Made by a program: the position numbers and the translations under genes. Positions 1,113 to 63,690 of a DNA stretch of 64,000 bases are shown here, in pieces. Below the pieces are notes generated by a model that had not been told where the DNA came from, did no database searches, and worked only from the letters and a program-made list of their open reading frames with translations. Numbering within the stretch: the first letter of the stretch is position 1; each line of letters begins with the position of its first letter. This DNA comes from Anoxybacteroides tepidamans (GTDB taxonomy: Bacteria > Bacillota > Bacilli > Bacillales > Anoxybacillaceae): NCBI RefSeq assembly GCF_014201465.1, contig NZ_JACHEP010000001.1:476833-540832 (forward strand), read 5' to 3'.

Positions 1113-2141
1113 CTATTTTCCTAAAATATTGACCAAATCTTCCATTTCATGCGTTTTGACGCGCGCCATGAGAGAGTCTGCCCCTTCTTTCGGGTCTTTG
1201 CCGTTAAACAATACATCATAAAGCACTTCCGTAATCGGCATTTTCACACCGAGTTTTTGCGCGAGCTGATAGGCGGCTTTTGTCGTTCGCACTCCTTCGA
1301 CAACCATCCCCATACTCTCTAGCACTTCGTCAAGCGGCTTCCCCTTTCCAAGCAAATGTCCCGCCCGCCAGTTACGCGAATGAACGCTCGTGCACGTGAC
1401 GATTAAATCGCCGATTCCTGTCAATCCAGAAAACGTGAGAGGATTGGCGCCGAGTGTGCAGCCTAACCGCGCAATTTCAGCAAGCCCTCTTGTCATGAGA
1501 GCCGCTTTCGCGTTATCGCCATAGCCTAATCCATCGGTAATACCTGCGGCAAGGGCGATAATGTTTTTGAGCGCCCCACCGATTTCAACACCGATTAAAT
1601 CCGGATTCGTATAGACGCGGAAGTATTGCGAGTTCATAAATAAATCTTGGATGCGTTCCGCCGCTTTCATATTTTTTGAAGAAACGGTTACTGTCGTCGG
1701 ATGGCGCAAACTCACTTCTTCGGCATGGCTCGGTCCTGATAAAATAACAACATCTTGTAAAAGCGAACCCATTTCTTCTTCAATAATTTCCGAAATGCGC
1801 TTATGCGTATCCGGCTCGATTCCTTTGCTGACGCTGACGATCGTAATCGGCTGTCGAATGCATTCGCGCACCTTTTTCAGCACGTCGCGAATCGCTTTCG
1901 TCGGTACGGCAAGCACGACCGTTTCGATTGATTCCAGCGCCCCGCAAAGGGACAAATAACCAACGATCGCTTCAGGCAGCTGAATTCCCGGCAAATACTT
2001 TTCATTCGTTCGCTTATGATTAATCTCTTCGATCTGCTCCGGGCGCTGCCCCCACAAACGAACGGCATGCCCATTATCAGCGAGCACGATCGACAGCGCC
2101 GTTCCCCAGCTTCCTGCTCCTAACACCGCAATTTGTTCCAC
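1113..2141 (-). CDS. gpsA: NAD(P)H-dependent glycerol-3-phosphate dehydrogenase
   Basis: GpsA reduces dihydroxyacetone phosphate to sn-glycerol 3-phosphate, the backbone for phospholipid synthesis. The 342-aa product has the N-terminal dinucleotide motif GAGSWGTAL (residues 8-16), the SKGIE and SGPSHAEEV signatures of the family, and the catalytic-domain segment [18 protein letters not shown] around residues 190-207. Length is normal for the family. The start is GTG (2139-2141), preceded by GAGGAAGTG. It follows der by 19 bases, as in B. subtilis. Confidence 0.96.
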
Positions 2142-45050: not shown

Positions 45051-45125
45051 GGGAAACGACAAAATACGGGAGCATAAAATCCCTCGCCGTTTCGCCATCT
45101 CACTCCCCGAAGATAGGAAACTTAT

Positions 45126-45290
45126 GCAAAAAAGGCAGGTCTACTGACTCATGCTTCACCCTACTTTGAACCTTCCCATACGGCCTTGCCGTACAGTGGT
45201 GACTTCATTTCGTCTGCATTTACAGTTGCGGGGACAGTTCTGGACTTTCACCAGATTCCCTATTAAGTCTTTCCGACACCTTTTTTACTT
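45126..45290 (-). promoter_or_regulatory. Cobalamin riboswitch controlling the btu-cob operon
   Basis: On the minus strand the region contains the conserved core GGGAATCTGGTGAAAGTCC, CCCCGCAACTGTAA, and the B12 box AGTCAGTAGACCTGCC. A P1 helix is visible between AAAAAAGG at the start (45279-45286) and CCTTTTTT at the end (45128-45135). The terminator downstream makes this a transcriptional OFF switch: high cobalamin should stop synthesis of the whole salvage and uptake operon. Confidence 0.95.
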
Positions 45291-45362
45291 TGTATGCAAT
45301 TGTATAAAATAATCGAACAATTGACAGTTATAATATTAAAGGAAGAAGAAGTGTTTGGCAAT

Positions 45363-50925: not shown

Positions 50926-51447
50926 CTACGGTTTAATGCTTTCCATATACTGTTTGACCATCTCTTCTGTCATCGTTCCAGTAATAATTTGTTTAATTTT
51001 TCCATCTTTATCAATTAAAAACGTCGTTGGCAGCGGGTTGATTTCATAGGCGTTCATCACTTGGTCTTCGCGGTCAATGACAACCGGAAACGTCAGTCCG
51101 AACCGGTCGACAAATTTTTGCACGCTTAATTTCGGTTCGCCGACATTGACCGCCAACACTTCAACCCCTTGTTTTTTATAGACCGCATATTGTCGGTTAA
51201 TATACGGCATTTCTTTTTCGCACGGCTTGCACCACGTTCCCCAGAAGTTCAAAAATACCCCTTTGCCACGGTAATCGGAGAGGCGGTGCGTTTTTCCGTT
51301 TAGATCCGTCAGCACGAAATCCGGGGCAGTCGCACCGACTTTAATGTCCGTTTTTTCCGCAAAAATGCTTGAATAAATCGTATAACCGACGGCGCTCAAC
51401 AACAACAATAAAATAACCGTACGCACAACAAGTCGCTGTTTTTTCAT
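50926..51447 (-). CDS. resA: Thiol-disulfide oxidoreductase ResA
   Basis: Membrane-anchored extracytoplasmic thioredoxin that reduces the cysteines of apocytochrome c. The 173-aa product has an N-terminal anchor (residues 8-27), the active site WGTWCKPCEKE and the cis-Pro segment PLPTTFLIDKDG. I chose ATG 51447, the first codon of native sequence (MKKQRLVV); the adjacent upstream ATG at 51450 and further in-frame codons belong to the inserted element. No good ribosome-binding site remains next to either ATG, so translation may be weak. Confidence 0.9.
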   Translation of the reverse strand: MKKQRLVVRTVILLLLLSAVGYTIYSSIFAEKTDIKVGATAPDFVLTDLNGKTHRLSDYRGKGVFLNFWGTWCKPCEKEMPYINRQYAVYKKQGVEVLAVNVGEPKLSVQKFVDRFGLTFPVVIDREDQVMNAYEINPLPTTFLIDKDGKIKQIITGTMTEEMVKQYMESIKP

Positions 51448-51464
51448 CATCTTTGGCGAGGAGA

Positions 51465-51499
51465 CCCCCACTTCACCGACCAAAGGGAGGAAGTGGGGG
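51465..51499 (+). repeat. Left-end hairpin of the IS605-like element
   Basis: A perfect 9-bp inverted repeat (51465-51473 with 51491-51499) with a 17-base loop, 18 bases inside the left boundary. Its arm sequence recurs at the right end. Confidence 0.8.
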
Positions 51500-51540
51500 A
51501 GGAATCGCCCATCCTCCTTTCTTTTGTATATAATATAATA

Positions 51541-51848
51541 AGAATGTGGAGAAAACCGTTGTATCAAGACACTCCAATCCCCGTTACTCGATGTAGGGAG
51601 TTGGTTGCAGGAAACGTTGCAACCGTAAACAATAGAGCGTACATCCGTCTGTTGTGCGTGGAAGTCAAGTACTGCCTACAGACATGCCGAGCCACTCGGT
51701 AGCGATATAGGCATGACCTATGTCGTTGGGTAGTCGTCAACCTGCCCCTAATGCAACCCCAAGTCAAGGAAGGAGATTGATGCCCGTTCGCACTTCTGGG
51801 GAGTTGCAGGCCTCCACTTCAAGCGTTAGCTAAGTGGGGGTAGTTGAC
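51541..51848 (+). ncRNA. Candidate omegaRNA-like structured RNA
   Basis: The interior folds on paper into several nested helices: GGTTGCA/TGCAACC (51603-51609, 51618-51624), CCGAG/CTCGG and GCCTA/TAGGC around 51675-51711, and a long-range TGCAAC/GTTGCA pairing (51752-51757, 51803-51808) next to CCCC/GGGG, then the right-end hairpin. This position and density fit the right-end guide RNA of TnpB-carrying elements. If so, the guide would be the flanking bases from 51849. A TATAAT near 51527 could drive it. No TnpB is encoded here. Ends are approximate. Confidence 0.45.
51811..51840 (+). repeat. Right-end hairpin of the IS605-like element
   Basis: CCTCCACTT (51811-51819) pairs with AAGTGGGGG (51832-51840) with one G-T pair, eight bases inside the right boundary. 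Confidence 0.75.
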
Positions 51849-51893
51849 CCCTCTAACTCTCCCAAAAAGAAAGATATACCCTCTACCATTATA
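51849..51893 (-). promoter_or_regulatory. Displaced native resA promoter and leader
   Basis: On the minus strand TATAAT (51893-51888) is followed by about 30 bases containing GGGAGAG (51864-51858), ending at the element. In the uninterrupted site this would place the ribosome-binding site about ten bases before the resA ATG. The -35 region is poor, as expected for an activator-dependent promoter. TTGTGTGACAA-like sequence near 51932 could be a ResD site, but this is weak. The rest of 51894-51954 shows nothing else. Confidence 0.55.
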
Positions 51894-51954
51894 GCAATAT
51901 CTACTATGGATATAATGAAAATTATATGAATGTTGTGTGACAATTGAGAAATAT

Positions 51955-63448: not shown

Positions 63449-63537
63449 CAGATGTATATGAAGATCGCCTTTTTTTGCATAGCAAAAATAACCCAGCGCC
63501 ATGCCCATTTTTCAATGAACGGCGTGAGTTGTCGGCA

Positions 63538-63666
63538 ATCCTTCTCCCATCCAGACTATACTGTCGGCTCCGGAATTGCACCGGATCGTGCCTGTACGGC
63601 TCGCGGGCTGAGAAACGTTCTGTTTCATTACCGCCGGTCGGGAATTTCACCCTGCCCCGAAGGATG
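63538..63666 (-). promoter_or_regulatory. FMN riboswitch (RFN element) of the rib operon
   Basis: On the minus strand the element reads ATCCTTCGGGGCAGGGTG, AAATTCCCGACCGGCGGT, then AGCCCGCGAGCC and GGTGCAATTCCGGAGCCGACAGT, closing with GGATGGGAGAAGGAT. These are the conserved RFN core blocks and the closing helix. FMN binding should terminate transcription ahead of ribD. Confidence 0.97.
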
Positions 63667-63690
63667 TGTCGCTATATTATATTTTCATTC

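Follow-up and report, generated by a model that had tools for sequence, protein, structure and literature searches.

A PATE-like IS200/IS605-type element at the start codon of resA in Anoxybacteroides tepidamans and its proposed portable split ribosome-binding site

Described mobile elements and split ribosome-binding sites

Selfish genetic elements limit the harm done to the host by splicing, as introns, inteins and IStrons do, or by the choice of safe insertion sites. Transposases of the IS200/IS605 group use single-stranded DNA. HEARO elements sit before the sequence ATGA, and the guide of a TnpB omega-RNA is ∼20 nt long. The TnpB of Geobacillus stearothermophilus and its motifs are reportedly a subject of earlier work.

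Among the closest described elements are the palindrome-associated transposable elements (PATEs) of the IS200/IS605 group. These are short, lack a transposase gene, carry palindromic ends that are common to larger elements, and insert 3′ of a short motif but do not duplicate the target (PMC7290912). An element of 401 bp, found at the resA gene in the 64,000-nucleotide stretch of A. tepidamans DNA analysed here (the window), shares all of these properties: shortness, absence of a transposase gene, shared palindromic ends, motif-directed insertion and lack of duplication. It differs from PATEs in a conserved Shine-Dalgarno (SD) sequence facing the adjacent gene, in a conserved internal RNA-like region and in ends that resemble those of two element types. 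IStrons are likewise related to IS605 and themselves contain a means of sparing the host gene (PMC4227781). IStrons splice, whereas a replacement ribosome-binding site is proposed for the present element, in which no intron was found.

A precedent for translation across a hairpin exists in phage T4. In genes 25 and 38, a hairpin between a distant SD sequence and the AUG codon brings the two to a working distance (PMC3014915). The hairpin spacer is the point of likeness, and the T4 split sites thus provide an experimental precedent for the arrangement of the element. The T4 sites described there are fixed in phage genes and have a spacing of 22–27 nt, whereas the element is mobile, is found before unrelated genes and has a spacer of 63–80 nt.

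The insertion at resA and the element family

The features of the locus are listed below by window coordinates.

50926–51447, minus strand: resA, intact, 173 amino acids, with a thioredoxin-like domain
51443–51447, plus strand: insertion motif TTCAT, complement of the ATGAA start of resA
51448–51848, plus strand: non-autonomous IS200/IS605-type element, 401 bp, PATE-like, defined by empty resA sites and by its family
51455–51509, minus strand: left-end hairpin, between element SD and resA ATG in the mRNA; it folds, has two-sided stem changes and a terminal stem GGCGA/UCGCC
51513–51520, minus strand: SD sequence supplied by the element, AAAGGAGG, strong in 66 of the 79 listed copies
51703–51848 (element 256–401), plus strand: probable TnpB-type omega-RNA scaffold, from identity to tnpB-bearing loci and a conserved fold, with the function predicted
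51811–51840, plus strand: right-end hairpin, from sequence and consensus fold
51849–51868, plus strand: presumed omega-RNA guide, equal to the displaced resA leader, judged by position
51857–51863, minus strand: native resA ribosome-binding site GGGAGAG, with the ATG now 402 bp further away
51888–51893, minus strand: native resA −10 hexamer TATAAT, within the conserved stretch TTGCTATAAT

The original prediction was that an IS605-like segment, with a hairpin near each end and TTGAC at its terminus, had entered directly 3′ of the TTCAT that complements the resA start, and that GGGAGAG and TATAAT lie beyond it on the minus strand; the sequence bears out each of these points. A simple promoter scan picked other hexamers for resA, TATAAT at 51921–51926 with TTCTCA at 51945–51950. 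The prediction had also proposed a comparison with relatives, and here the empty site was found: segment 51448–51848 is absent from all 29 resA loci fetched from other genomes. The seven nearest loci (the six other genomes of the genus and G011) display GGGAGAG or AGGAGAG, then 7, 7, 10, 7, 8, 8 and 8 nt, respectively, and then ATGAAAAA; the spacing of 10 nt between ribosome-binding site and ATG belongs to locus L037. In locus L040 the empty site reads GGGAGAGTTAGTGTG followed by ATGAAA. When the window is joined at 51849/51447, as had been suggested, it reads GGGAGAGTTAGAGGG followed by ATGAAA and has the same length as L040, so that normal spacing is restored. There is an ambiguity of one base at resA, with C at both 51448 and 51849, which other copies resolve. 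The insertion is thus exact and without target duplication, as anticipated for an IS200/IS605-type insertion 3′ of a short motif.

The search for the segment and its full-length relatives, likewise proposed at the outset, revealed a family with at least 79 distinct full-length copies and 74 distinct sequences among the matches listed, as well as tnpB-bearing relatives. Matches to the element are found in all seven genomes of the genus (E 0.001) and in at least 26 of 41 genomes of the bacterial family (E 1e-15). TTCAT is directly 5′ of all 79 distinct full-length copies listed. In 76 of these it was located within 9 bases of the aligned end; three divergent copies from G023 needed a wider search, and the homologous TTCATCG is visible in their flanks and, for two, also in the alignment. 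TTGAC terminates 78 of the 79. The own genome has one further full-length copy (90% identical) as well as end fragments. Both the insertion and the existence of the element family are secure.

Three PATE features are present: the short fixed motif 5′ of the insertion in 79 of the 79 listed copies, exact empty sites without target duplication at resA, pgk and etfA, and subterminal hairpins common to gene-bearing elements. The element is filed as PATE-like within the IS200/IS605 group. Four Y1 transposase genes are found in the own genome, and beside them no left-end pattern like that of the element family was found. Two tiny copies in the own genome (L006, ∼1487–1541, and L097, ∼1309–1363, minus strand) show the left-end motif and the right end seemingly fused around one hairpin, with left-end positions 6–28 overlapping right-end positions 361–401.

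Composite ends and the RNA of the element

Element positions 1–61 or 3–61 match the left ends of tnpB-bearing elements, but within the left hairpin the element diverges from these and matches the end of IscB elements instead. The bases matched in IscB elements code for the IscB C-terminus, ERRKGDSSPTFALA. At the other end, positions 256–401 are 89.7–91.1% identical over 146 nt to the right ends of six tnpB-bearing loci, and in a seventh (L102) the right-end match begins at element position 275. Since the left part matches IscB ends and the right part tnpB-element ends, the element combines an IscB-type left end with a TnpB-type right end. In the same bacterial family, elements that carry tnpB (L099 and others) have the TTCAT motif and a nearly identical left hairpin (1–61) and right end (256–401). 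They differ in the presence of tnpB, in having no SD sequence at the corresponding left-end place (0 of 16) and in being found at no start codon by the machine rule given below (0 of 16). In one of them, L100 (G006:C13:65914-69581), the ends are ∼3.2 kb apart and a 552-amino acid frame between them resembles the transposase of another IS.

Among the 102 pairs in a consensus fold of 14 representatives, 15 show changes on both sides, and this suggests that the element RNA is structured. The 3′ part of this RNA is probably a TnpB omega-RNA with the displaced resA leader as its guide, to judge from sequence identity and position. A stretch adjoining a TnpB gene on an Alicyclobacillus plasmid shares 72% identity with the right end of the element, and the omega-RNA type therefore extends beyond the bacterial family. 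TnpB is found at E 1e-60 in 16 of 41 genomes of the bacterial family. A cognate TnpB was not found in the own genome, where the best matches have 24–31% identity at E 1e-8 or weaker. In the genome searches, the internal region (element ∼75–255) had no match outside full or partial copies of the family among the matches listed. The corresponding window stretch, 51522–51702, is conserved in the family and has covarying pairs.

IscB/HEARO elements (L215, L216, L218–L221 and L224) display the same SD-hairpin-ATGAA sequence as the element. They differ in that their SD stretch codes for iscB, and in that the window element has no HEARO RNA; a HEARO RNA inside the element was rejected, as a search at E up to 5 gave no match there and the positive control, L098, was detected at the default threshold. 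This control locus, in the own genome (G000:C18:52500-54271), carries an intact IscB gene of 443 amino acids and a HEARO RNA at 1512–1734 on the minus strand, and its 3′ end has the same SD-hairpin-ATGAA arrangement. For IscB elements with the same SD stretch, a frame of ≥100 codons follows at one of five distinct sites, L216 (G001:C2). There the IscB element is directly before ATG ATG ATGAA and a 105-codon frame of thioredoxin-like appearance, a site of the same type as resA.

Start sites and proposed translation of the invaded genes

The machine rule scored a copy as a start-site copy if the native SD matched in ≥4 bases and was sensibly spaced, and if a frame of ≥55 codons began at ATGAA. 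By this rule 28 of the 79 listed copies are at start sites; after curation with Pfam and by hand, 30 of the 79 separate an ATGAA start from its native ribosome-binding site, and 49 are elsewhere. Pfam families at the start copies include phosphoglycerate kinase, a queuosine synthesis protein, a phosphoribosyltransferase (which, by its start, we take to be pyrE), dUTPase, NrdR, an NTP transferase (by its start, presumably galU), the DeoC family, an electron-transfer flavoprotein (the gene is assumed to be etfA), thiolase, arginase, PTS EIIC and the thioredoxin-like ResA. In the own genome, each of the two full-length copies occupies a start site, one at resA and the other at etfA. The empty etfA site is exact in three of five loci of relatives, and the start pattern was not picked up by the script in the other two. 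In the single-contig genome G034, the element is found between the native SD and the ATG of the sole pgk, and all four sister genomes have AAGG[A/G]GG next to the ATG at the empty site.

Since ATGAA has TTCAT as its complement, start codons form a natural target. The frequency of start sites was compared with three backgrounds. The 310 TTCAT sites of the window comprise 230 coding, 20 start and 60 other sites; the copies classed in the same way comprise 14 coding, 30 start and 31 other sites (75, four having been dropped for short flanks). Coding sites are thus depleted (14 of 75 copies vs 230 of 310 background sites), as selection would do. When start sites are set against other non-coding sites, the copies are enriched at starts relative to the window (p=0.003 curated, p=0.01 by machine rule). 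TTCAT in the 29 resA loci, a background in which the resA start is over-represented, gives 39 start and 87 other sites (p=0.04, machine), and other TTCAT sites in the flanks of the copies give 13 start and 62 other sites (p=0.0004, machine). Start-site copies are present in all three sequence groups of the family (7 of 17, 18 of 54 and 5 of 8).

The preference is associated with the SD sequence. Start sites are occupied by 29 of 66 copies with a strong SD and by one of 13 with a weak SD (p=0.011), but a single variant is common to 10 of the 13 weak-SD copies, so that they are not independent. The tnpB-bearing elements with the same TTCAT motif, none of 16 at a start site by the machine rule (p=0.002), are mostly ∼1.37 kb in length, longer than the window element, and this greater length alone could make them less tolerated.

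Read toward the gene, the element has an A-rich stretch, then in most copies AAAGGAGG or AAAGGGGG, 2–3 nt, the left-end hairpin and the native ATG. From the hairpin to the native ATG there are 6–9 nt in the representatives that fold so and 7 nt in the window. The linear SD-ATG distance of 63–80 nt, found across the 30 start-site copies, is too far for initiation, and the SD would therefore be usable only with a folded spacer; with the left-end hairpin folded, the effective gap becomes ∼8–11 nt (window ∼10 nt). An SD far from the ATG in line with a hairpin between the two is the arrangement of a split site. In the minimum folds of 15 of 19 representative leaders the hairpin is formed and the SD is free, and the other four pair at least part of the SD, three of them with UUCCUC or UUCCUCC. 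The leader of the window folds slightly better than shuffled sequences (z −1.13, with 26 of 200 shuffles as good), and that of pgk does so more clearly (z −2.47). Across the family, five of the 14 pairs of the left hairpin have changes on both sides, and pairing is kept in the terminal stem variants GGCGA/UCGCC, GCGCA/UGCGC and CGCGC/GCGCG. Because transposition presumably also requires the hairpin, the covariation alone is no proof of a role in mRNA.

It is probable, on the basis of sequence comparison, that the resA insertion is a selfish non-autonomous element with a portable split ribosome-binding site. Such a site is strongly inferred from the sequence, the site statistics and the presence of a copy at a central-metabolism gene that is the only one of its kind in a one-contig genome. 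According to this proposal, with the element placed 3′ of TTCAT, where it precisely separates the resA start codon from the native ribosome-binding site, the native promoter would transcribe through the inserted DNA. Toward its end, the long leader would have AAAGGAGG and then the left-end hairpin, with 7 nt between the hairpin and the native ATG. Folding of the hairpin would put the SD ∼10 nt from the ATG, so that ribosomes could initiate at the original codon, and TnpB with the omega-RNA would act in trans to retain the element. Insertions at start sites would be tolerated because the element brings a replacement, and relatives are apparently often found there because it supplies a ribosome-binding site that folds up beside the start codon.

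The original prediction had gone on to conclude that resA is split from its expression signals. It is correct that the native ribosome-binding site is displaced by 402 bp, but the native promoter, which is intact, could drive transcription across the element, the element brings its own SD with the left-end hairpin between it and the resA ATG, and 30 of 79 sister copies are at like sites, one before a sole pgk. The conclusion is thus probably incomplete, and resA appears more likely to have been re-equipped than disconnected by the element. A simple disruption, with resA silenced or weakly expressed and the SD-like sequence incidental, is considered unlikely. The displacement itself and the 49 listed copies outside curated start sites are in keeping with it, as is the relation of the SD to iscB, since a sequence that is derived from, or common to, iscB coding sequence may be of chance origin. 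However, start sites are enriched and not depleted while coding sites are depleted, the only pgk of G034 carries a like insertion, and start-site location goes with a strong SD. Perhaps the SD began as iscB coding sequence and was kept for sparing the host gene. Equally unlikely is a target bias alone, by which the transposase favours single-stranded DNA at gene starts and tolerance is unrelated to the SD. The use of single-stranded DNA by these transposases and the identity of TTCAT with the complement of ATGAA fit such a bias, but the absence of the 16 TTCAT-motif tnpB-bearing elements from such starts and the single start site among the 13 weak-SD copies argue against it, with length and lineage as confounders of both comparisons.

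Expression may also be kept by another route, such as a promoter within the element, read-through translation that yields an N-terminal fusion, or coupling to a short frame further upstream, and this is rated somewhat less probable still. In 27 of 30 start copies the reading frame stays open for 38–128 codons upstream of the native ATG, and in the window a frame from TTG at 51567 runs into resA. Three start copies (L170, L166 and L111) nevertheless have an in-frame stop 8–15 codons before the ATG, and fusion is therefore rejected as a general mechanism. Coupling to a short frame right after the window SD was set aside, the ATG of this frame resting on a base that is absent from the other aligned representatives. 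A simple scan, of a kind that misses many promoters, called none on the gene strand inside the element, and read-through from the native promoter is assumed. Removal of the element from resA mRNA as a self-splicing, IStron-like intron is highly improbable. Some IS605-related elements are IStrons (PMC4227781), but neither strand of the region has a match to any Rfam intron family at E up to 5, and the HEARO control locus was detected at the default threshold. A group I intron or IStron is accordingly rejected.

A fuller account, beyond the portable split site itself, is put forward with the chances for and against it evenly balanced. Here the family would be specialised for start codons, the motif being the complement of ATGAA, and the transposition hairpin would double as the mRNA spacer of the split ribosome-binding site. 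The omega-RNA would take the displaced leader as its guide, so that the empty allele could be cleaved by a TnpB acting in trans. The element would then be a portable 5′ leader that spares, and maybe re-regulates, the invaded gene, and pairing of the SD with UUCCUCC could make this leader a switch.

The portable split site is regarded as a new feature of the element. No paper that describes a split ribosome-binding site on a mobile element, or a preference of these elements for start codons, was recognised in the literature covered, which lies mostly outside subscription papers and makes this weak evidence. If the proposal is true, harm is avoided at the level of translation, by an element that supplies a substitute for the displaced ribosome-binding site and whose end hairpin serves as the spacer. 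This would explain why short IS200/IS605 derivatives are found at start codons of important genes, and it would mean that there are many natural split ribosome-binding sites before unrelated genes. Elsewhere in the window, two riboswitches score above the gathering thresholds, both on the minus strand: a cobalamin riboswitch at 45117–45298 and an FMN riboswitch at 63535–63668.
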